Origin: an uncultured Mycobacteriaceae bacterium
GTDB taxonomy: Bacteria > Actinomycetota > Actinomycetes > Mycobacteriales > Mycobacteriaceae
Reading direction: 5' to 3'
Assembly: GCA_902826815.1 (NCBI GenBank)
Contig: CADEGF010000034.1
Coordinates: forward strand, 1 to 64,000
Length of the DNA stretch: 64,000 nt
Below are positions 1,228 to 19,983 of the stretch, piece after piece. Each line of letters starts with the position of its first letter. Position 1 is the stretch's first letter. The position numbers and the translations under genes are program-made. The notes under the pieces were generated by a model. The model was not told where the DNA came from, did no database searches, and was given only the letters and a program-made list of their open reading frames with translations.

Positions 1228-1239
1228 TTCGAAATCGAA
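1228..1239. promoter_or_regulatory. TTCGAnnTCGAA operator candidate, site 1
   Basis: TTCGAAATCGAA: half-sites TTCGA and TCGAA separated by two bases. It lies in the 213-bp gap between the MarR fusion gene and the amidohydrolase gene, 170 bp upstream of the latter's start. It shares the core with palindromes at 4877, 18102 and 19970. Confidence 0.55.
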
Positions 1240-1271: not shown

Positions 1272-2663
1272 TCATGAATGGATGCCGTCGTACAGGCCTG
1301 CGCCCGCGGTGCGCTCGTATTCGCTTCGCAGTCGACGGGACAACTGGCGCGCCCGATGCACCGGCTCAGGAAGCCTCAGTTGCTCTGTCGTGTGCACGGC
1401 GACGTCACGGGCGAGCTCGGGCGTGGTGAGCCAGCCCGCGTGCGCCACGATCGTGTTGCTTCGTTCATGTGTGCGCACCTGATAGCCGACCACCTCGCCG
1501 TCAAGCCGGACCGGACCCGCGTCGCCTCGGTTGGCACCGGTTTCCGGTGCGATGCCGACATCGGTCTTGTCCGTGATCCCGATCGTGGGGATGCCAAGTG
1601 CACTGCCGAGCTGAATGGCCAGGCCCGCCCTGCGCACATGGTCGCGCCCCGCAGCGTTGACGATGACTACATCCGGGCGCATCGGCAGTGCGTGCACGAC
1701 GTCTTCGAGGATCGGGCCGACCGCAACCGCCAGGTACCCGGGGTGATACGGGCGGGTCAACCGGCGCGTACAGGTGGCGGTTGCCACCAGCGTGTGGCCC
1801 TTCATCACCACGGCTCCGGCCCACGCGATGTTGCGTGGTGCGCCCGCCGTTCTCGTCGTCGGAAGCGATACGAACACACCACCGATCGCAGGATGCGCCC
1901 CTTGCGGCCATTGCCACGGGGGTGCACTCTTCGCCTTGCGCGCGAGGTCGTGTTGCAGGTCTTCCAGCTCGGAGTCCGACGATGGCCACATGTTGATCCG
2001 GACGAACGCGTCAGATGCTTGCGGCGATGCGGCCGGAACGGTCCAATTTGCGCTGTCGGGATGCGGCAGGCCACTAGTACGACGTCGCGGCGCCGGGTCT
2101 TCGTATTCGACCAGCATGCCGCGCATCTCGCGCAACGCGGTGTCGATGTTGTGAAGGTCCGACTCGCCGAAGAGGTCGTGACCCTTCTGCGTGCACGCCG
2201 CCATGGCCCGGTTCACCATGTCGAGGCCGAGCGCGGTGAGCACCACCGGCATGTTGCGTCGGTCGGACTGGTCAGCGGTGCGTTCGATGAATCCCTTCGC
2301 CTCCAGCCTGCACAGCCGGTTGGTGACCGCGGCCGGCGACAGCAGCAGCAGCCGGTGCAGGTCGCGGGGCAGCATCCGAAACGGCGGCCCTGCGCCGCGC
2401 AGCGTCGCAAGCACCAGGAACTGACCCCAGTCGAGGCCGTACACCGAGGAAGCCCGCTCCATGCACTGCTGCAGAACATGCGCCATCCGGGAGAGTCGCG
2501 CGGTGACCGCTATCGACTCCACCTCGGTGCGCGCCTCTTCGGAGAACGCCCCGAGGACGGCGTCGACGGGATCGACGCCGAGCGGTTCATGCGTGATGTC
2601 GCGCATCGGCGCGAGGGGGTAGACGTTGTCGCGCTGCACGGGTATTCGACGGGCCTGTGTCAC
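1272..2663 (-). CDS. MarR-family regulator fused to an endonuclease V-like domain with lost catalytic acids
   Basis: A 463-residue protein. Residues about 50-190 form a MarR winged helix-turn-helix (LSPAAVTNRLCRLEAKGFIER, then DQSDRRN as the wing). Residues about 255-447 match endonuclease V along their length: GGVFVS, PYHPGYLA, PDVVIVNAAG, HVRRAGLA, GIPTIGI, DGEVVGYQVRT and RLPEPVHRA. Compared with active EndoV, as I recall Thermotoga maritima D43, E89 and D110, the positions here are F264, V315 and N336, so nuclease activity is probably lost. The PYxP DNA-wedge motif (305-308) and the H116 equivalent (H342) remain. The start is GTG with a strong AGGAGG. It is the last gene of the CaiB-MaoC-MaoC operon and is probably its regulator. 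The EndoV fold is assigned from recalled motifs; no search was run. Confidence 0.85.
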   Translation of the reverse strand: MTQARRIPVQRDNVYPLAPMRDITHEPLGVDPVDAVLGAFSEEARTEVESIAVTARLSRMAHVLQQCMERASSVYGLDWGQFLVLATLRGAGPPFRMLPRDLHRLLLLSPAAVTNRLCRLEAKGFIERTADQSDRRNMPVVLTALGLDMVNRAMAACTQKGHDLFGESDLHNIDTALREMRGMLVEYEDPAPRRRTSGLPHPDSANWTVPAASPQASDAFVRINMWPSSDSELEDLQHDLARKAKSAPPWQWPQGAHPAIGGVFVSLPTTRTAGAPRNIAWAGAVVMKGHTLVATATCTRRLTRPYHPGYLAVAVGPILEDVVHALPMRPDVVIVNAAGRDHVRRAGLAIQLGSALGIPTIGITDKTDVGIAPETGANRGDAGPVRLDGEVVGYQVRTHERSNTIVAHAGWLTTPELARDVAVHTTEQLRLPEPVHRARQLSRRLRSEYERTAGAGLYDGIHS

Positions 2664-2672
2664 GGGTGCCTC

Positions 2673-3110
2673 CTAGCTTCGCGTCGGCAGGACGACGACG
2701 GCACTTCCTGGCGTCGTCACCTCGCCGCGCGAGTTCTCGATCCAGATCTCCAGCTCGACACGGGTTTCACCCGCGACGACCGACGCATCGCGGACCACTC
2801 CGCGACAGCGCAGGTCTTCCCCCGGTTCGTCCAACCCCCGATACGAGCAGCGGAACGACACGACGCGACCATCGGGCGCGATCCAGTCGTGTAGTAGCTG
2901 ACCGAGAAAGGCGTACTTGAGTGCGCCGTGCACGACAAGTCCGGGAAGCCCGGAAGCGCGCGCGAATTCGGCGTCGTAGTGGATCTCGTAAAAATCTGGG
3001 GCTGCCCCCGCCCACATGACCAGCTGTCGCGGCGTGCAATTCTTCACCAGCTCGGGCAGTTCATCGCCGGGGTGGACGTCCTCGGCGTAGATCTGCTGGG
3101 CTGGTGTCAC
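2673..3110 (-). CDS. MaoC-like hot-dog hydratase, catalytic-type subunit
   Basis: A 145-residue single hot-dog domain protein of the MaoC/(R)-hydratase family, which adds water to enoyl-CoA thioesters. The hydratase motif is visible as AAPDFYEIHYD, with D39 and H44 as the probable catalytic pair, followed by GLVVHG. It starts at GTG and overlaps the preceding MaoC-like gene by 4 bases (GTGA), so the two are translationally coupled. The partner lacks the His, so the pair looks like a heteromeric hydratase of the HadAB or ChsH1-ChsH2 kind. Ten bases downstream lies the MarR fusion gene. The substrate is unknown, presumably a CoA ester made by the CoA-transferase at 3589. Confidence 0.85.
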   Translation of the reverse strand: MTPAQQIYAEDVHPGDELPELVKNCTPRQLVMWAGAAPDFYEIHYDAEFARASGLPGLVVHGALKYAFLGQLLHDWIAPDGRVVSFRCSYRGLDEPGEDLRCRGVVRDASVVAGETRVELEIWIENSRGEVTTPGSAVVVLPTRS

Positions 3111-3592
3111 GCCCCGTCATCTCCTCGGTAGTTGATCACCGTGGCGGTCAATTTGCATACAAGTTCACTGTGCCTGGAGAACCGCACCTCGCGGGTCAAA
3201 ATCACCATTTGTCCCAAGGATCCCTGCCGTTCCTTGATGTCGACGAGGACCGGGGTGGCCACCAGTTCGTCGCCCGCGAAGACCGTCGCGAGGTACTCCA
3301 GCTCGGTGCCACCGTTGACACTGCGGGCCAGACCGGGCAACAGTCCCCGGATGGGTGGACCCGGCTCCGGCTCGCCAGGTCGGAAGCGCGGCACACCGAG
3401 GTATCCCGGTGGTGCGGGCAGGCGCGGGTAACCGCGCTCGCGGGCGACGTCCTCGTCGAAGTAGACGGGGTCGTCGTAGCCGACGGCGCGCGCCCATGCC
3501 CGGATGCCGGTGCGGTCGACCTCATGGATGATCGCGGGCCAAGGTTTCCCGATCAGCGCCTTGATGTCCTCGGTGAGCAGCGAGGTGGTCAA
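3107..3592 (-). CDS. MaoC-like (FAS1-dehydratase-region) non-catalytic subunit
   Basis: A 161-residue hot-dog protein resembling the N-terminal MaoC dehydratase domain (LIGKPWPAIIHEVDRTGI, then YDDPVYFDEDVAR). At the place where catalytic MaoC proteins carry Asn-x-x-His it reads DPVYFD, so it probably acts as the structural or substrate-binding half of a heterodimer with the 145-residue protein at 2673. The chosen start is the TTG at 3592, because its bases overlap the stop of the CoA-transferase gene (TTGA) and the homology begins there; the longer in-frame reading lies inside the CoA-transferase gene. The end overlaps the next gene by GTGA. Confidence 0.8.
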   Translation of the reverse strand: MTTSLLTEDIKALIGKPWPAIIHEVDRTGIRAWARAVGYDDPVYFDEDVARERGYPRLPAPPGYLGVPRFRPGEPEPGPPIRGLLPGLARSVNGGTELEYLATVFAGDELVATPVLVDIKERQGSLGQMVILTREVRFSRHSELVCKLTATVINYRGDDGA

Positions 3593-4770
3593 CCGAACGC
3601 CCCCGCCGCCGCCAGCTTCTCGATCTGCTCCCTCGTGTAACCGAGCACCCGGCTCAACACGTCCGAGACGTCGCCGCCCAGCGTCGGGGGCGCAGTCGTT
3701 TCCGGCTCTGCACCGCCTACGACCTTGATGGCGTTCCCGACGGCGCGCATCTCGCGCCCGTTCTGGACGAACGACTTGATCATCCGGCGAACCTCGATGT
3801 GCTTGTCGGAGAACATCTCCGGCATCCTGTTCACCGGTGCGGCGGGAACCCCGCCGTCTTGCAGCATCGCCAGCCACTGTCGGCTCGGGCGTGTCTTGAT
3901 GATGGACTCCAGCAGCGGCAGCAGCTCGCTGCGGTGTGCCTGACGCGACTTGGCGTCGGCGAACTCGGGTTTGTTCGTGATCTCGTCGACGCCGAGCACC
4001 GCGCAGAACTTGGACCAGAAATGCTCCTCGCGCGGAGCGACGACGATGTAGCGGTTGTCACTGCATCGGAATGCCTGCCACGGGGTGATGAACGGGTGCG
4101 AGGAGCCCTGCGGTTGCTGGTCGGTTCCGGTGTTGAGGTAGAGGGTGCCGACGTGGGCGAGCATCTCGACCATCACGTCGAACATCGCGATGTCGATGTG
4201 CGTGCCCTCGCCGGACTCGCGGCGCGCCTCGACCGCCGCAAGCAAGGCGACCGCGGAGAACACCCCTGCGAGCAGGTCTGCGATCGGAATCCCCATGATG
4301 ACAGGGGGTCTGCCCTGTTCGCCCATGATGGACATGTGGCCGGTCATCGCCTGCAGGATCAGGTCATACGCCGGCAGGACGCGGTAGGGACTATCCGTGC
4401 CGAAGCCCGACACCGACACTAGGACGATGCGCGGATTCACCGCACGTAGGCTGTCGTAATCGATGCCGAGGCGCATCAGCACGTCCGGCCGGAAGTTTTC
4501 CACTACCGCGTCCGCCGTGCGCACCAGGTCGAGCAGAACCGCTCTTCCCTCGGTGGTGCGCAGGTCCAGCACGACGCTCTTCTTGTTCCGATTGTTCGTC
4601 AGATGGATCGCGCTTTCCTCGCCGATCCCGTAGATGCCCGACCGCCTGCCCGCGTCACCGGTCGGCGGTTCGACCTTGATCACTTCGGCCCCGAGGTCGG
4701 CGAGGATCATGTCGCCGAAGGTGCCCGCAATGACCTGACCCAACTCGATGACGCGAAGGTGGCTCAACAC
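3589..4770 (-). CDS. CaiB/BaiF family (class III) CoA-transferase
   Basis: A 393-residue class III CoA-transferase that moves CoA between carboxylic acids. Family features are the N-terminal VIELGQVIAGTFGDMILADLGAEVIKVE type opening, the NNRNKKSVVLDL segment, VVENFRPDVLMRLGID and DLLAGVFSAVALLAAV. The GTG start at 4770 has AGGAG seven bases upstream. It is the first gene of the operon CaiB-MaoC-MaoC-MarR and diverges from the DRE-TIM lyase operon across a 221-bp region with a palindromic operator candidate. In this context it would activate the acid substrate of the pathway as a CoA ester. The substrate cannot be read from the sequence. Confidence 0.9.
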   Translation of the reverse strand: MLSHLRVIELGQVIAGTFGDMILADLGAEVIKVEPPTGDAGRRSGIYGIGEESAIHLTNNRNKKSVVLDLRTTEGRAVLLDLVRTADAVVENFRPDVLMRLGIDYDSLRAVNPRIVLVSVSGFGTDSPYRVLPAYDLILQAMTGHMSIMGEQGRPPVIMGIPIADLLAGVFSAVALLAAVEARRESGEGTHIDIAMFDVMVEMLAHVGTLYLNTGTDQQPQGSSHPFITPWQAFRCSDNRYIVVAPREEHFWSKFCAVLGVDEITNKPEFADAKSRQAHRSELLPLLESIIKTRPSRQWLAMLQDGGVPAAPVNRMPEMFSDKHIEVRRMIKSFVQNGREMRAVGNAIKVVGGAEPETTAPPTLGGDVSDVLSRVLGYTREQIEKLAAAGAFG

Positions 4771-4876: not shown

Positions 4877-4888
4877 TTCGACGTCGAA
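4877..4888. promoter_or_regulatory. TTCGAnnTCGAA operator candidate, site 2 (divergent promoter region)
   Basis: TTCGACGTCGAA is a perfect 12-bp palindrome. It lies almost exactly midway between the divergent CoA-transferase start (107 bp away) and DRE-TIM lyase start (104 bp away), as expected for a regulator controlling both operons. Confidence 0.6.
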
Positions 4889-4934: not shown

Positions 4935-4991
4935 CGCGTTTCGTCAAGCAAGCTCGCTGACGCCGAAATCGCTTCTCCGGGAGGTTTTTTG

Positions 4992-6329
4992 ATGTCCATC
5001 GAACTGCGGGAGTGGCTGTCCGGACCTGCGGTGCCGACCGCGCCGCCGGAGAGCTCGGATACGAAGGCCGGTCATGTGCCGGACACCGGTGTCGGCACAC
5101 CGGGATTCCGCGAAGGCATGTGGGCGGTCAGCCCGTACTGCTTCGACGAGAAGATCCGATCGGATATGCACCTACCCGACACCATCCAGCTGATGGACAT
5201 GACGCTGCGCGAGGGCAGGCAGGTCGCCGGAGTCTCGGTCGGCATCGACGAAGTCCTCGAATTCGCCCGCCGGATCGACGAGGTCGGTGTGCACATCGTC
5301 GAGATGCACCACGACTTCATCGACGAAATCAAGCGGACAAAGGCCATGGGGGTCAAGTTCCGCATCCAGGCGCTGGTGCACCCGACGGCGGCACTCAACC
5401 CCGCGGCGTGCCGCGAGGAGATCGACCTGTGCCTGGACGCAGGCGCCGACATCATCTGCCCGGCGTTCGCCATCTCCGACTACAACTACAAGCTCGTCGA
5501 GTCCATGGGTGGTCTGACGATCACCCGCGAGGAGGCACTCGACCGCGCCTGCGAGGCCATTCAGTACGGCAAAGAGCAAGGCGCGTACATGAATCCGAAC
5601 CTGATGGACTTCTCGCGGTTGGACCTCGATCGTCTGAAGACCATCGTTTCGCGGCTCAAGGAAGCCGGCATCGACGGTCTGCGCATCGACGACATCTGCG
5701 GCGCGTGCATTCCGGCCGTGTACAAGCACCACGCATGGGAGGTAAAGCAGATCCTCGGCCCCAAGATTCCGCTGGCGATCCACAGCCACAACGACTTCGA
5801 GCTCGGTACGGCGGGTCAGCTCGCGGCACTCGAGGGTGGCGCGGAGGTGCTCGAGGGCTGCATCAACGGCCTCGGCGAACGCGCGGGCGTGCCCAACCTC
5901 GCGGTGATGGCGCCGGTGCTGGAGATGATGTACGGCTACGACACCGGCATGCGGCTCGAGCTGCTGCAGGACCTGTGCGAGTGGGTGGCCGACGTCTGGA
6001 ACCAGCCGATCCCCGAACATCAGGCCGGCTGCGGGCACACTGCGTTCTCCCACGCCGCCGAGGTGCACTACGCGCTGCCGGACGGCGACGAATGGTCGTT
6101 CAACGCCTGGGCGCCGCGCGTCATCGGCAACGACCACTATGTGCCTCTCTGCCACTACTCCGGCGTCGAGGCGATCAAGCGCACGGTGATCGAGCACGGC
6201 TGGGACCCCATCGACAGCGACGTCGCGCAACGGGTGCTCGAGCGTGTCCGTACAGAAGTGAGACACCGCAGGCGTGAACCGAGCGACCGCGTCCTTGCAC
6301 AGATCGTCGAAGAAGAACAGCGGCGCTGA
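4992..6329 (+). CDS. DRE-TIM metallolyase (HMG-CoA lyase / isopropylmalate synthase-like)
   Basis: A 445-residue TIM-barrel protein of the pyruvate carboxyltransferase/HMGL superfamily, which makes or breaks C-C bonds next to carbonyls with a divalent metal. The signature MDMTLREG (D69, R73, E74) and the metal-binding IHSHND (H264, H266, N267) are intact. GCINGLGERAGVPNLA matches the usual downstream family motif. The ATG at 4992 follows GGGAGG; the TTG directly before it is not needed. It is the first gene of a seven-gene plus-strand operon. The product could be an acyl-CoA lyase or a Claisen-type synthase; the sequence alone does not decide. Confidence 0.87.
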   Translation: MSIELREWLSGPAVPTAPPESSDTKAGHVPDTGVGTPGFREGMWAVSPYCFDEKIRSDMHLPDTIQLMDMTLREGRQVAGVSVGIDEVLEFARRIDEVGVHIVEMHHDFIDEIKRTKAMGVKFRIQALVHPTAALNPAACREEIDLCLDAGADIICPAFAISDYNYKLVESMGGLTITREEALDRACEAIQYGKEQGAYMNPNLMDFSRLDLDRLKTIVSRLKEAGIDGLRIDDICGACIPAVYKHHAWEVKQILGPKIPLAIHSHNDFELGTAGQLAALEGGAEVLEGCINGLGERAGVPNLAVMAPVLEMMYGYDTGMRLELLQDLCEWVADVWNQPIPEHQAGCGHTAFSHAAEVHYALPDGDEWSFNAWAPRVIGNDHYVPLCHYSGVEAIKRTVIEHGWDPIDSDVAQRVLERVRTEVRHRRREPSDRVLAQIVEEEQRR

Positions 6330-6358: not shown

Positions 6359-7141
6359 ATGAGGCAACTGGACGGCAAGAACGTCTTCCTGACCGGCGCA
6401 AGCAAGGGGATGGGGCGGGAGATCGCGCGCGGTCTCGCCAAGGAAGGCGCGTCGATCGCGCTGGTGGCCCGCACCGAGTCGGCGCTCAAGGAACTGGCCG
6501 AGGAAGTGGCAGGCCTTGGCGGGCGGGCGATCGCGGTGCCGACCGACGTCACCGACAAGGAGCAGATCAAGGAAGCAGTGCGGCGCGCCCGCGACGAATT
6601 CGGCCAGATCGACATCCTGATCAACAGCGCGGGTGTGCTCGACAATGAGCCGATCGCCAACCACAGCGACGAGGCGTGGGAATTCCACTACGGCGTCAAT
6701 GTGAACTCGTACTTCTACACGATCCGCGAGATCATCGGCGAGATGCTGGACCGCCGTTCCGGCCGGATCATCAACATCGCGTCGACGTCGAGCAAGGTAC
6801 CGATCGGGCCCAACCGTGCTGCCTACGTGTCGTCGAAGCACGCGGTGCTCGGATTAACCAAGGAGGTCGCGTTCGAGGCCGCGCCGTTCGGCGTGACCGT
6901 CAACGCCATCTGCCCCGGCTTCGTGTTGACCGACATGGTCGAGGACAGCATGCGCAAATTCGCCCGTGACTCCGGGAAGACTCCGGAGGAGACTCGGGCG
7001 ATGTGGATCGCCAAGATCCCGATGGGCCGGTTCATCGACCCGACCGAGGTGGTGGGGCTGGTGCTGTTCCTGGTGTCCGACTCCGCAGGCGCGATCACCA
7101 TGCAGGCCATCAACGTCGACGGCGGCTTCTGCCCCAACTGA
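6359..7141 (+). CDS. short-chain dehydrogenase/reductase (SDR)
   Basis: A 260-residue classical SDR with the nucleotide-binding TGASKGMG at residues 14-21, the NSAG motif, a catalytic Ser in INIASTSS and the YVSSK catalytic Tyr-Lys. The C-terminal ITMQAINVDGG is typical of FabG-like members. It probably interconverts a hydroxyl and a keto group on a pathway intermediate with NAD(P)(H). It lies 29 bp downstream of the lyase gene with GAAGTAAGGA before the ATG, and 16 bp upstream of the enoyl-CoA hydratase, in the same operon. Confidence 0.9.
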   Translation: MRQLDGKNVFLTGASKGMGREIARGLAKEGASIALVARTESALKELAEEVAGLGGRAIAVPTDVTDKEQIKEAVRRARDEFGQIDILINSAGVLDNEPIANHSDEAWEFHYGVNVNSYFYTIREIIGEMLDRRSGRIINIASTSSKVPIGPNRAAYVSSKHAVLGLTKEVAFEAAPFGVTVNAICPGFVLTDMVEDSMRKFARDSGKTPEETRAMWIAKIPMGRFIDPTEVVGLVLFLVSDSAGAITMQAINVDGGFCPN

Positions 7142-7157
7142 TTTCGAAAGGACTTCG

Positions 7158-7949
7158 ATGAAGGTCACCAGCATCGGGGACGTGTCCCTGGTCGAGACCG
7201 TCTACGAGAAGCGGGACAAGGTCGCCTACATCACGCTCGACCGTGAGAGCGCGGCCAACGCGTTCAACGTGCAGATGTGCAACGAGATGACGGCCATCTG
7301 GACCGACTTCAACAACGACCAGGACTCCTGGGTGGCGGTTGTCACCGGGGCAGGGGAGAAGTACTTCTGCTCGGGCGTCGACGTCAAGGAGTCACGCACG
7401 AGGCCGATGGGGCACATCTGGCTCCCGGTCGCGCGGATCATGGAGGAGATTCACAAGCCGATCATCTCCGCCGTCAACGGCATCTGCTGCGGAGGCGGGC
7501 TGCACTTCCTCTCCGACACCGACATCATCATCGGGTCGACGAACGCGGTGTTCTTCGACTCGCACGTGAACGTCGGCCTGGTCTCCGGCTGGGAGCCGAT
7601 CGGCCTCAGCCGTCGCATCCCGCTGAACTACGTGCTGCGAATGACATTGCAGGGCCGCAACTACAAGATCGATGCGGCCGAAGCGCTTCGTATCGGGCTG
7701 GTCACCGAGATTGTCGAACCAGACCAGTTGCAGGCCAAGGCGGACGAGATCGCGCAGGACATCCTGCAGAACGCGCCGCTGGCCACAAGGTGGTCCAAAC
7801 ACGCGATCATCGAGGGTCTCAACCACGGCATGCGTGACTCCCTCGAGTTGTCGGCGTACATGCTCAAGGAGGTCTGGGACACCGAAGACCGGATGGAAGG
7901 CGCCCAGGCGTTCGCCGAGCGACGCAAGCCCGTCTGGAAGGGCAAATAG
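7158..7949 (+). CDS. enoyl-CoA hydratase/isomerase (crotonase) family protein
   Basis: A 263-residue crotonase-fold protein. The CoA-binding and oxyanion-hole segments are recognisable (SGVDVKES; INGICCGGGLHFLSDTDIII in the paired region is VNGICCGGG). The ATG at 7158 follows GAAAGGA; a longer in-frame reading runs into the SDR gene and is not credible. The usual hydratase Glu positions are not conserved in an obvious way (VNVGLVSGWEP in place of the EVxLG stretch), so the reaction could be isomerisation, hydrolysis or C-C cleavage rather than hydration. It sits between the SDR and amidohydrolase genes of the operon. Confidence 0.85.
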   Translation: MKVTSIGDVSLVETVYEKRDKVAYITLDRESAANAFNVQMCNEMTAIWTDFNNDQDSWVAVVTGAGEKYFCSGVDVKESRTRPMGHIWLPVARIMEEIHKPIISAVNGICCGGGLHFLSDTDIIIGSTNAVFFDSHVNVGLVSGWEPIGLSRRIPLNYVLRMTLQGRNYKIDAAEALRIGLVTEIVEPDQLQAKADEIAQDILQNAPLATRWSKHAIIEGLNHGMRDSLELSAYMLKEVWDTEDRMEGAQAFAERRKPVWKGK

Positions 7950-7953
7950 TCTC

Positions 7954-8952
7954 TTGTCGAAGGTCATCGACGTTCACTGGCATCACATCCCGAAGGCGTT
8001 CGCAGACGCCGTCGTATCCGGGCAGGTTCGGGTGGCGGGCCGGGTCGTGACGAGTGAGGACGGATTGTCGACCGTCCTGCTCGACAACGGCTTCTCCCAG
8101 ACGCTGCCCGCATCCCTGACGGATCCGGCGACGATCCTCGCCGACATGGATGCCGCGGGAGTGGACGTCGTGGCCGCCTCCATCGCCCCTCCGATGTCGC
8201 ATTACGACGTCGATCCTGAACTGGGGCTGGCCGTCAGTCGTGTGATCAACGACTCGTTCGCCGAACTCGCCGGCAACTATGGCGGCCGGGTGTTGCCGCT
8301 TGGAAACGTGCCCCTGCAGGACGTCAAATCGGCAATCGGCGAATTGCGGCGCATCACAGACGATTACGGATTCAAGGGCATCCAGGTCGGAAGCAACATC
8401 GGCGGCAAGAACCTCGGCGACGAGTCACACTTCCCATTCTGGGAAGAGGTCCGCGAACGCGACCTCTTCGTGTTCTCGCACGGCGTGAACCCGCTCGGCG
8501 CCGAGCGGCTGAGGGAGAATCAGCTGCACAACTTCGTCGGCCTGCCCATCGATACCGCGGTCTCGGTCGGCTCGATGGTGTTCAACGGTGTCTACGAACG
8601 ACTCCCCGGTCTCAAGATCTGCTACTCGCACGGCGGCGGTGCCTTTCCGTGTCTTCTCGGTCGCTGGGATCACGGATTCCGTGATCGCCTTTCCAAGCAG
8701 ACCGAGACGACAATCAAGATGCCGACCGACTACCTCGTCGACATGTACGCCGATTCGCTCACCCACGATGCCGCCTCGCTGCGTTTCCTGGTGGAGCGGC
8801 TCGGTGCGAGCCAGGTGTTGCTCGGCAGCGACCATCCCTTCGACATGGGAGAGAGGGATCCCGTGGGCAAGTTAAAGGAAGCCGTCGACGATCCGGATGT
8901 GGTGGCAGCCATCGCCGGGGGCACCGCGGCCCGACTGCTCGGCGTGTCCTGA
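7954..8952 (+). CDS. amidohydrolase-2 (ACMSD-like) family protein, second copy
   Basis: A 332-residue paralogue of the protein at 42-1058. Metal-site residues are H8 and H10 (DVHWHH), H176 (FSHG), H226 (SHGGG) and D293 (LGSDHP). No ATG fits; the TTG at 7954, four bases after the previous stop, gives an N-terminus that aligns with the paralogue. It probably catalyses a metal-dependent decarboxylation or ring-fission-product hydrolysis. The presence of two copies in one regulon suggests two successive steps or two related substrates. Translational coupling to the enoyl-CoA hydratase gene is likely from the spacing. Confidence 0.87.
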   Translation: MSKVIDVHWHHIPKAFADAVVSGQVRVAGRVVTSEDGLSTVLLDNGFSQTLPASLTDPATILADMDAAGVDVVAASIAPPMSHYDVDPELGLAVSRVINDSFAELAGNYGGRVLPLGNVPLQDVKSAIGELRRITDDYGFKGIQVGSNIGGKNLGDESHFPFWEEVRERDLFVFSHGVNPLGAERLRENQLHNFVGLPIDTAVSVGSMVFNGVYERLPGLKICYSHGGGAFPCLLGRWDHGFRDRLSKQTETTIKMPTDYLVDMYADSLTHDAASLRFLVERLGASQVLLGSDHPFDMGERDPVGKLKEAVDDPDVVAAIAGGTAARLLGVS

Positions 8953-8984
8953 CGGCTGGCCAGAAGTGGGTACGCGCCGGCCTC

Positions 8985-10142
8985 GTGGCACTGGCTGTCG
9001 ACGCCGTCGGCGTGCTCCCGATCTTCCTCACCGGAGCGATGGCTGTTCAGCTCCGCGCCGACATCGGCCTTTCGTTGGATTCGCTCGGCCTTGTGTTCGC
9101 ATCGTATTTCGGTGCGGCGGCGCTGTTGTCGATCCCGTTCCGGCACGCCTCGGAACGCATCGGGCTGCGCGCCAGCCTGCGGATCGGGCTGGCCATCTAC
9201 GCGGCCGCGCTGATCGGGATGGCCGTGTTGGCGTCGTCAACAGTGGAGATGTGTGTACTCGCGGGACTGGCGGGCGTCGGCACAGCGGTGACCCGCACTG
9301 CGTCGAGTGTGCTGATCGCGTGGCACTCCGAACCGTCCCGTCAAGGCCTCGCCTTCGGCATCAAGCACGGCTCCATCCCGGTCGCGTACGTGATCGCCGG
9401 GCTGTCGGTGCCTGCGCTTGCGCTGACCGTCGGCTGGCGCTGGGCGTACGCGATCGCGGCCGTGATGGCGTTGATCGTCGCAGCTATGGTGCCGCCGTCG
9501 AGAGCGCGGCTGGCCCGCGGCGAGTCGCCGGGAAGGCCGAACCTGTCGCGGTGGCAGTTGACAGTGGTGGCGATGAGTTTCGGGCTCGGCTCCGCCGCGG
9601 CGGCCTCGCTTGGCGCCTACAGTGTCAGCACCGCGGTGACGGCGGGGCTGAGCGAGGCGGCCGCGGGCGTGCTGGTTGCCATTGGCAGTGTCGTTGGGTT
9701 GGCCAGCCGCGTAGTTGTCGGCTACTGGTCGGATCGCCGGGCAGGCAATCAGCTCGACCTTGTTGCGGGAATGATGGCCGCAGGTGTCGTCGGCTTCCTG
9801 CTCCTTGCAGTGCCACATCACATCGTGGTCGCCATCGCGGTACCGATCGCCTTCGCGACCGGGTGGGCCTGGATCGGTTCCTACAACTTCGCGATAGCAC
9901 GGCTGAACCCGGAGGCGCCAGGCGCGGTGATGGGCGTCGTGCAGACAGGCGCGTTCAGCGGCTCCATCGCCGGGCCGATCATCCTGGGCGTCCTGGCGGA
10001 AAGGCATTCGCACGCAGCAGCCTGGATCGGTGCGGCGATCGCGGCGTCCCTGGCGACATTGGTCATCCTCGTTCTTCGCAGGAAACTGGCCGACCAGCCG
10101 GTGGCCGACGCGAAAAGCATTGAAACACCGCAAAATCTGTGA
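8985..10142 (+). CDS. MFS transporter
   Basis: A 385-residue integral membrane protein with about twelve hydrophobic segments and a duplicated 6+6 layout, typical of the major facilitator superfamily. It probably moves the substrate or a product of the pathway across the cytoplasmic membrane. The first credible start is the GTG at 8985, which begins inside the first membrane segment. The frame is open back to the previous gene's stop (a CTG overlaps it), so the real start may be up to 12 codons earlier. It lies in the middle of the plus-strand catabolic operon. Confidence 0.85.
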   Translation: MALAVDAVGVLPIFLTGAMAVQLRADIGLSLDSLGLVFASYFGAAALLSIPFRHASERIGLRASLRIGLAIYAAALIGMAVLASSTVEMCVLAGLAGVGTAVTRTASSVLIAWHSEPSRQGLAFGIKHGSIPVAYVIAGLSVPALALTVGWRWAYAIAAVMALIVAAMVPPSRARLARGESPGRPNLSRWQLTVVAMSFGLGSAAAASLGAYSVSTAVTAGLSEAAAGVLVAIGSVVGLASRVVVGYWSDRRAGNQLDLVAGMMAAGVVGFLLLAVPHHIVVAIAVPIAFATGWAWIGSYNFAIARLNPEAPGAVMGVVQTGAFSGSIAGPIILGVLAERHSHAAAWIGAAIAASLATLVILVLRRKLADQPVADAKSIETPQNL

Positions 10143-16259: not shown

Positions 16260-17978
16260 TCAGCCCTTGTTGTAGAAGACCCAGCGCGGCATGATCCACA
16301 GGGGGTTGTAGACGAAGTCCTTCACCCAGCACTGCATGATCTGGACGTTCTTCTCGTCTGCGGCCCAGATCCACATCGGATCGTCGTGGATCAACTGCAG
16401 CGCTTGCTTGTAATCGTTCTCGCGCTCGGTCACATCGGTCGACACCGCCGCTGTGTCCAGCAGTTCGGCCAGTGCGTCGGGGTCCTTCATCCCGCTGCGG
16501 TAGCCCAGCTTGGTGCCCCACTCGCCATCGGGGTGGAAGTACGTCTGCATGAACTGGTACGGATCGGTGAACGGGTCGGCGTTCTTGATCCACATCGCGT
16601 AGGGGAACGGCGTCTGGCCGTGCATCTCGTCGAACTGGGACTCCGCGACCTGAACCACGTTCACGCGGAATTTCGGGTTCAGCTTCTCCAGCGAATCCTT
16701 GAGGATCAGACCGACCGGCGTGAAGGTCGGGTTGGCCTCCTCGACGAGGATTGACACCTCGAATCCCTTATCCCAGTATCCAGTCTCCTTGAAGAGCTTC
16801 TCGGCCTGACCAAGGTCCTGGTTGTAATGCGGTGCGTCCTCCGACCAACCGAGCACACCCGGCGGGAGATAGGTCGGGTTGGCACCGAAGCCCTCGAGAC
16901 CGGAATTCACCATCGTGTCGTAGTCGAATGCGTAATTGAACGCCTGGCGGATCCGCACGTCGTGGAAGAAGTCGGCGGGGATGGTGTCGCTCTTCGGCAG
17001 CTTCGCCTTGTCGATCGCGAGATTGAAGGCCAGATGCAGCGGCTCGAGGAGGTATCCGCCCTCGTCGAAGCACACGTTGGGGGTATTGCCCTTGAGCTCC
17101 GTAACATACTGCGGCGTCGGCTCGACCAGGTCGAAGTCGCCTGCCTTCATGCCGATCGTGATGACACTCGGGTCGTCGACGACCTCCCAGCGGGCATCCA
17201 GTTTCGCCGGGCCGTTCCAGTAGTCGGCGAACTTCTCGAACGTCAGCCGCTCACCGCGATCCCACTTGGTGAGTTTGTAGGGGCCGCTGCCCGCTTCGCT
17301 CGTGGTCATGAATTCGTTCGTCTGGCCGGCCTGCACCCCGCCGTTCTTCTCGACCGCGTCCTTGCTGACGATCGCGGCGGGCGGCGAGTACGCGACGGTG
17401 CCGAGGAAGTAGGCGGCCGGCTCCTTGAGCTTCACCTCGAACTTGTATGGGTCCACCACGCGTGTCGACTCGATGAGGTCGGTCAGCTTGGAAGCCTGAC
17501 CCTCGGGCAGGTTCATCGTCATCACCCGGTCCCACGAGAACTTGACGTCCTCGGCGGTGAGGTCGGTCCCGTCGTGGAACTTGACGCCCTCGCGGATGGG
17601 AAAGGTGTACGTCAGCCCGTCGGGCGAGACCAGCCCGTTCTCCTTGCTCGGCACCTCGGTCGCGATCATCGGCACCGGATCGGCACTGTCAGGCGGGATA
17701 TCGATGAGGAAGTCATACATCTGGATGATGGCGCGGTTGCCGAACCCGCCATCGGTGGTGGCCGCGGGGTCGAGGGACTCGGGCTCACCGCCGAGCGAGT
17801 GGACGAATACACCGGGGTTCTTGACTTCGGACGGCGCGGCGCCATCGCCGCCGCCACCACCTTCACCTTCGGGAGTGGCTGCGTTACCGCACGCCATGGA
17901 CAGCGTGAGCAACACCGCGGAAATGATCGCGAGCGTACGAGCGGCAATGTTTCGCTGGTTGTGTGCAACGGGTTTCAT
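16260..17978 (-). CDS. peptide-type ABC transporter solute-binding lipoprotein (SBP family 5)
   Basis: A 572-residue extracytoplasmic binding protein of the DppA/OppA class. A signal peptide (IISAVLLTLSMAC) ends in a lipobox-like SMAC, followed by a Gly-rich linker (EGEGGGGGDGAA). Family landmarks are GGEPESLDPA, FPIREGVKFHDGTDLTAEDV, IRQAFNYAFD and the C-terminal DDPMWIWAADEKNV. The ATG at 17978 follows AGAGGGG; an ATG five codons earlier is possible. It is the first gene of the importer operon. A TTCGAnnTCGAA palindrome lies 124 bp upstream. The family includes transporters for peptides, nickel, opines and sugars, so the ligand is open. Confidence 0.92.
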   Translation of the reverse strand: MKPVAHNQRNIAARTLAIISAVLLTLSMACGNAATPEGEGGGGGDGAAPSEVKNPGVFVHSLGGEPESLDPAATTDGGFGNRAIIQMYDFLIDIPPDSADPVPMIATEVPSKENGLVSPDGLTYTFPIREGVKFHDGTDLTAEDVKFSWDRVMTMNLPEGQASKLTDLIESTRVVDPYKFEVKLKEPAAYFLGTVAYSPPAAIVSKDAVEKNGGVQAGQTNEFMTTSEAGSGPYKLTKWDRGERLTFEKFADYWNGPAKLDARWEVVDDPSVITIGMKAGDFDLVEPTPQYVTELKGNTPNVCFDEGGYLLEPLHLAFNLAIDKAKLPKSDTIPADFFHDVRIRQAFNYAFDYDTMVNSGLEGFGANPTYLPPGVLGWSEDAPHYNQDLGQAEKLFKETGYWDKGFEVSILVEEANPTFTPVGLILKDSLEKLNPKFRVNVVQVAESQFDEMHGQTPFPYAMWIKNADPFTDPYQFMQTYFHPDGEWGTKLGYRSGMKDPDALAELLDTAAVSTDVTERENDYKQALQLIHDDPMWIWAADEKNVQIMQCWVKDFVYNPLWIMPRWVFYNKG

Positions 17979-18101
17979 CGTGCCCCTCTTCATCGGGCGG
18001 CAGGCGAATAATTGGCTCTTTGCCGGAAGTATGCCTCCGGTCGAAAGAGGATCTGACCGTAATTCGGCATGTTCTCAGTGATCAAGAATGAGGCGATTCG
18101 A

Positions 18102-18113
18102 TTCGACATCGAA
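18102..18113. promoter_or_regulatory. TTCGAnnTCGAA operator candidate, site 3
   Basis: TTCGACATCGAA, with half-sites perfect and the central two bases non-palindromic. It lies in the 179-bp gap upstream of the importer operon, 124 bp before the solute-binding protein start and downstream of the hydrolase stop. Confidence 0.55.
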
Positions 18114-19967: not shown

Positions 19968-19983
19968 GTTTCGATATCGAAAC
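19968..19983. promoter_or_regulatory. TTCGAnnTCGAA operator candidate, site 4 (perfect 16-bp palindrome)
   Basis: GTTTCGATATCGAAAC is fully palindromic and contains the same core as sites 1-3. It lies 47 bp upstream of the CocE-type hydrolase start, where a repressor would block the promoter. Confidence 0.65.

Follow-up and report, generated by a model that had tools for sequence, protein, structure and literature searches.

In a 64,000-nucleotide stretch of DNA from an uncultured Mycobacteriaceae bacterium (assembly GCA_902826815.1, contig CADEGF010000034.1, positions 1 to 64,000; hereafter the window), one gene encodes a MarR-type regulator fused to an endonuclease V (EndoV)-like domain (Table 1). 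The protein is probably a one-component regulator that combines a complete MarR repressor with a complete EndoV fold no longer able to cleave, a reading to which we give a probability of about 0.6 on the basis of sequence. A MarR helix-turn-helix followed by an EndoV-like domain had been proposed in a first-pass annotation, and both parts are matched by Pfam models above the curated cut-offs: MarR_2 at residues 75–136 (1.4e-10, 41.6 bits against a cut-off of 27), MarR (39.9 bits against 24.6), and Endonuclease_5 (PF04493) at residues 259–438 (8.7e-29, 101 bits against 23.4), the last being the sole match to this family in the genome. By the search, this genome belongs to a genus in which Mycolicibacterium agri-like species are also placed. 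The fusion has both the MarR fold of the module and the EndoV (RNase H-like) fold. Chance, a local frameshift, which the annotation had named as a possible undoing of the proposal, and a pseudogene are ruled out by the single open frame, by the ratio of nonsynonymous to synonymous substitution rates (dN/dS) given below, and by an orthologue in M. agri (L004:6001–7392), 80% identical over the full length, with the same architecture and the same three catalytic replacements.

The active site was mapped by adding Thermotoga maritima (Tm) EndoV, in the form of the D110N mutant entry 6ozf, to a 47-row alignment. According to PMC4650699, D43, E89 (as Q89) and D110 of the Tm enzyme handle Mg, K139 and H214 bind the 5′ phosphate, and G83, L85, G111, G113, G121 and L142 form the hypoxanthine pocket. 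None of the three metal-binding acids is present in the fusion: the positions read F264, V315 and N336, just as first annotated, with no intact Asp or Glu in the catalytic columns of the alignment. Furthermore, two losses beyond those annotated are found at the phosphate-binding positions, where D365 takes the place of K139 and R439 that of H214 (D210 in E. coli EndoV). An ordinary catalytic EndoV joined to a MarR is ruled out, because the catalytic columns are lost in both fusions. The hypoxanthine pocket corresponds to G309, L311, A337, G339, G347 and D368, four of the six being identical, with Gly to Ala at G111 and Leu to Asp at L142. The wedge P79-Y80-I81-P82 is aligned with P305-Y306-H307-P308, and Tm H116 is retained as H342. 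Judging from these residues, the fusion has lost the ability to cut but retains a large part of the base pocket. Lacking both metal-binding Asp, the metal-binding Glu and two phosphate-binding residues, the domain would very probably perform no EndoV-type metal-dependent cleavage. In comparison with Endonuclease V (2w35/6ozf, S. avermitilis 3goc and E. coli 4xpu), the domain shares the sequence family, the complete fold, the wedge Tyr, most of the backbone positions of the pocket and the His at Tm H116, but differs in the replacement of the three metal acids and of K139 and H214/D210, in the newly fixed D341, T364, W411 and R439, and in the fusion to a MarR.

The loss of catalytic residues did not arise in this regulator: the fusion belongs to a wider and mostly stand-alone subfamily. 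The EndoV part was searched against 394 genomes of the class (108 matched), 298 of the order (98) and 296 of the phylum (87), and in family searches against 22 (6) and 112 (10) genomes around two of the matches and against 271 (24). In these searches a set of proteins scores far above ordinary EndoVs. In the phylum, eight genomes besides the own one are found at 1e-84 to 1e-70, the next best being 6e-42; some rows of the other searches were already part of the search profile. The sequences of 19 stand-alone members were read (four from family f22, seven from f4, one from f61, four from f67, one from f102 and two from f72), and these and the two fusions make up 21 subfamily rows, which were compared with 26 catalytic rows. 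The D43 column holds F, Y, W, V or A and is non-D in 21/21 (D in 26/26 catalytic rows), and the K139 column holds D in 14 rows, H in five, and R and T in one each (K in the catalytic rows). Four other residues are fixed in all 21 rows: D at Tm A115 (A in 26/26 catalytic rows), T at A138 (T364 in the fusion; A in 22 and G in four catalytic rows), W at H185 (H in 25, N in one) and R at H214 (D in 25, H in one). The signature composed of these four residues, a non-D at D43 and a non-K at K139 is carried by 21/21 subfamily rows and 0/26 catalytic ones. The D110 column reads N in nine, A in seven and D in five rows, and at E89 the Glu is kept in 14/21, with D in 2/21.

Two claims of the first-pass annotation have to be narrowed by these counts. 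It had proposed that a nuclease fold was repurposed in a regulator; the fusion, the intact fold and the missing acids stand, but the loss is not in this regulator and is shared with the subfamily. The PYxP wedge and H342 do persist in the fusion, as it had said, but across the subfamily the Tyr alone of the wedge is fixed (21/21), P79 being kept in 14/21 and P82 in 15/21 rows. In a maximum-likelihood tree, the 21 rows are placed on one side of a branch with a support of 100/100, which is also present in 100% of 200 bootstrap trees; the support was 100/99 in an earlier version with 13 rows. Because the rows were first chosen by profile score and D43 loss, the tree is a check of coherence and not an independent discovery. 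The fusion groups with the f67 and f102 rows, which are from outside its own class, so that a transfer is possible, but the support of this grouping is just 86/83. L084 and L085 (D/E/D but in other respects unlike catalytic EndoV), L090 (no C-terminal part), L091 (long branch) and L092 were excluded from the counts; L105 and the catalytic L043, L047, L051, L052, L054, L056, L057, L060 and L062 were excluded from the 21-versus-26 comparison to thin near-copies; and L106, L109, L110, L113 and L114 are outside the alignment, and most catalytic-range matches are outside the comparison.

The subfamily core is basic, with a mean net charge of +8.0 in 13 members (5 to 13) versus −1.8 in 31 catalytic proteins (−6 to 3; p 2e-7, uncorrected for relatedness). 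This charge, the wedge Tyr (Y306, Tm Y80) found in 21/21 rows, and the pocket positions G83, L85, G113 and G121, identical in the window protein (G111 is A337), would also suit a domain that has kept its nucleic-acid surface as a grip on DNA or RNA, either extending the footprint of the regulator or tethering it to nucleic acid that is damaged, single-stranded or carries inosine. Such a grip is possible but somewhat unlikely, considering the unfixed wedge prolines, the Asp (D368) at L142 in the fusion and a core charge of the window domain, +7, that is moderate. A different enzyme may be imagined from the new polar residues fixed next to the retained His (21/21) and from the stand-alone homologues, which lack a MarR partner in most loci examined: its rebuilt site would consist of D341, H342, T364, D/H365, W411 and R439, and it might, for example, hydrolyse a pathway intermediate. 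With position 365 variable among the 21 rows and no conserved neighbourhood suggesting a pathway seen by eye, this is very unlikely.

The fusion is supported as being kept under purifying selection. Between the window and M. agri fusions, dN/dS (Nei-Gojobori method, custom script) is 0.140 for the whole protein, 0.133 for the MarR part, 0.307 for the linker, 0.082 for the EndoV part and 0.046 for the EndoV core at residues 259–372; constraint on the EndoV part is thus no weaker than on the MarR part (dN/dS 0.082 versus 0.133). The M. agri gene was the one orthologous locus found by scanning genome contigs for the fusion, a scan that detects close relatives only. Of 396 genomes sampled within the genus, three including the own one match the EndoV part, the two others being weak and partial matches (1.7e-4 and 5.8e-4). 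For the whole protein, 166 of 198 genomes of the genus have a match, again including the own one, and among the matches listed those outside the own genome fall in the MarR part (best, 5.2e-20). A mobile origin was considered and rejected, plasmid and phage records giving only <60% identity (21 and 3 records), and none of 90 candidate stretches in viral contigs was confirmed.

The MarR module finds its best solved-structure sequence matches in PecS (2.3e-19) and MftR (9.6e-16). Its N-terminal extension aligns with these urate-responsive MarRs, whose entries are without the C-terminal EndoV domain present in the fusion. In HucR, D73, R106 and R118 are ligand-pocket residues, the last two contacting urate. 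The latter two are retained as R116 and R128, so two of the three are kept, and D73 is L83 in both fusions; the presumed urate pocket is therefore incomplete and the usual purine site altered. The two Arg, and free-standing relatives that regulate with a MarR alone, would agree with an EndoV domain that is an inert passenger or a scaffold stabilising the dimer, with regulation through the usual MarR pocket. This is improbable: a passenger is unexpected because the EndoV part, above all its core, is under tighter constraint than the MarR part, and the pocket to be used carries the change at L83. According to PMC6391409, UrtR proteins are characterized by an N-terminal helix with a conserved Trp; the corresponding position is F40 in the window fusion and W in the M. 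agri fusion.

The regulator would most likely act as follows. The MarR dimer may bind the palindrome TTCGAYRTCGAA in promoters of the cluster including that of its own operon, as position and conservation suggest, and most likely represses coenzyme A (CoA)-dependent catabolic genes, an ABC transporter and a hydrolase. The EndoV-derived domain would have been selected as a binding module, the occupancy of which alters the hold of the MarR part on DNA. The rebuilt and basic site suggests an anionic ligand, perhaps an acyl-CoA intermediate, a nucleotide or a nucleic-acid strand, this being the most tentative step. Acyl-CoA is a sensible first candidate, because MarRs of the CouR, FerC and HcaR type regulate catabolic operons and several of them respond to CoA thioesters, according to PMC5487221. 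As in the systems described there, the MarR gene is beside CoA-dependent catabolic genes with palindromes in promoters; those regulators are described as single-domain proteins whose ligand sits in the MarR crevice, whereas the fusion has a second folded domain. The fused domain and its conserved stand-alone actinobacterial relatives suggest a putative binding module that has been overlooked. An unlikely extension is that purine sensing has moved between folds: a urate-type MarR would have lost part of its pocket, and the pocket of the dead EndoV, which formerly accommodated a flipped hypoxanthine, would read a purine-bearing inducer (such as acyl-CoA intermediates of the adjoining pathway, a nucleotide or inosine-containing nucleic acid), with the stand-alone proteins as an actinobacterial “EndoV reader” family recognising without cutting.

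The palindromes named in the first-pass annotation at 4877 and 19968 are indeed present, at 4877–4888 and 19970–19981. The window contains three copies of TTCGAYRTCGAA (4877, 18102 and 19970) versus 0.01 expected, and the genome contains 16. All three window copies are intergenic as judged by our own gene caller, and M. agri has a conserved counterpart of the 4877 block (L004:3805–3816), in a locus that also has CaiB, two MaoC-type, isopropylmalate-synthase-like, SDR, enoyl-CoA hydratase and amidohydrolase genes. Putative targets are the CaiB-type CoA-transferase, the HadA/B-like hydratases and the regulator itself, as well as the isopropylmalate-synthase-like enzyme, SDR, enoyl-CoA hydratase, MFS transporter, ABC transporter and CocE/NonD hydrolase. 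Separately, a one-mismatch palindrome is found in M. agri (L004 7814–7825), near the start of a small membrane-protein-like open reading frame after the fusion gene.

Of the other 13 genomic sites, 11 are inside called genes and two are intergenic at a distance of at least 322 bp from a called start, and an intergenic position within 120 bp of a start is found for 3/3 window sites versus 0/13 others (Fisher 0.0018). In 0.8% of simulations, three of 16 randomly placed sites share a span of 15.1 kb. Several points weigh against the proposed regulator. The positional criterion was set after seeing the sites and rests on our own gene caller; moreover, two of the 13 are located 69 and 76 bp ahead of a called start, although inside another called gene. 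On another contig of the same genome (C33:44972–50938), three exact copies lie within 6 kb, all inside called genes, which is tighter than random (0.085% of simulations) and perhaps due to codon usage, so clustering alone proves little. That the palindromes are used by this regulator, not by another one, is inferred from their location. The charge test ignores relatedness. Since a MarR is missing from the surroundings of most stand-alone relatives, nothing links the EndoV-like domain to sensing in general. Indeed, a hidden Markov model of the MarR part, run against six-frame translations of 58 loci (47 distinct EndoV-like places), matched only the two added fusion loci, and on 11 further or re-run loci it gave one match, in L115.

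No described regulator of this kind was found in open-access literature, a partial coverage, as the first-pass annotation had supposed, and neither was a described non-catalytic EndoV subfamily in the same coverage. The MarR-EndoV combination and the non-cleaving subfamily thus appear undescribed, each half being of a known kind. PF04493 and the deoxyribonuclease V models match subfamily proteins, so databases file them under Endonuclease V and a non-cleaving member can be mistaken for a DNA-repair enzyme. The NCBIfam cut-off does not split the two types, as even the catalytic L048 scores 224 versus 230. The fusion offers a first handle on the job of the subfamily, as it comes with a candidate operator in a promoter, a defined group of putative targets and a partner with a known mode of DNA binding. 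If the domain senses a ligand, a nuclease fold has become the sensor of a one-component regulator and would be a ready part for biosensors; a domain that recognises inosine or damaged nucleic acid but leaves it uncut would instead serve as a reader for base deamination.

Table 1. Features of the window around the fusion gene (residue numbers refer to the fusion protein)
Feature	Position	Strand	Remarks
MarR/dead-EndoV fusion gene	1272–2663	minus	463 aa; GTG start at 2663, stop 1274–1272
AGGAGG	2674–2669	minus	5 nt ahead of GTG; within end of upstream MaoC-like gene
Complete MarR module, residues 21–194	2082–2603	minus	aligns end to end with free-standing MarRs
MarR winged helix, residues 75–137	2253–2441	minus	
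Linker, residues 195–222	1998–2081	minus	poorly conserved (44% identity across residues 191–222)
EndoV fold without catalytic residues, residues 223–453	1305–1997	minus	
F264	1872–1874	minus	Tm D43 position
V315	1719–1721	minus	Tm E89 position
N336	1656–1658	minus	Tm D110 position
D341	1641–1643	minus	Tm A115 position
D365	1569–1571	minus	Tm K139 position
W411	1431–1433	minus	Tm H185 position
R439	1347–1349	minus	Tm H214/E. coli D210 position
TTCGACGTCGAA, candidate operator	4877–4888		divergent promoter; 107 and 112 bp from two called starts
TTCGACATCGAA, candidate operator	18102–18113		109 bp ahead of called start of ABC transporter gene (by eye), 16260–17993
TTCGATATCGAA, candidate operator	19970–19981		49 bp ahead of called start of CocE/NonD hydrolase gene
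TTCGAAATCGAA, weaker candidate, one mismatch	1228–1239		between fusion gene and gene 42–1109
Amidohydrolase (by eye)	42–1109	minus	after fusion gene; M. agri orthologue; no NCBIfam match
MaoC/HadB-like hydratase	2673–3110	minus	directly upstream of fusion gene
HadA-like hydratase	3107–3586	minus	
CaiB-type CoA-transferase	3589–4770	minus	first gene of minus-strand run
Isopropylmalate-synthase-like enzyme	4989–6329	plus	first gene of divergent run
SDR dehydrogenase, enoyl-CoA hydratase, amidohydrolase (by eye), MFS transporter	6359–10142	plus	

There are also some minor observations on the relatives. By eye, no conserved gene neighbourhood was seen around 15 of the 19 stand-alone members. In L115 (genome G1103), a free-standing MarR gene (6557–7051, minus strand; profile match 1.2e-17) and a stand-alone dead-EndoV gene (8040–8702, plus strand) are separated by about 1 kb, and the pair is a possible unfused version of the MarR and dead EndoV. 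The same genome has a second EndoV-type match in two overlapping pieces (C33:2276–2940 and C99:38039–38701) besides its dead-EndoV gene, and catalytic and dead types may co-exist there. L091 (G1047 C1:1128644–1129126), with G at D43, E89 and D110 kept, R at K139 and a very long branch, falls in neither group. L084 and L085 (G295 and G346) keep D/E/D and K139 but no longer have the His at Tm H116 or the DHPRR/AHPRR motif, and L090 (G886 C12:108377–108763) is a dead-EndoV homologue with an apparently broken C-terminal part. A small dodecin-like gene (by eye) is located near the dead-EndoV gene in L066 (4643–4852) and L121 (3965–4246), possibly by coincidence.
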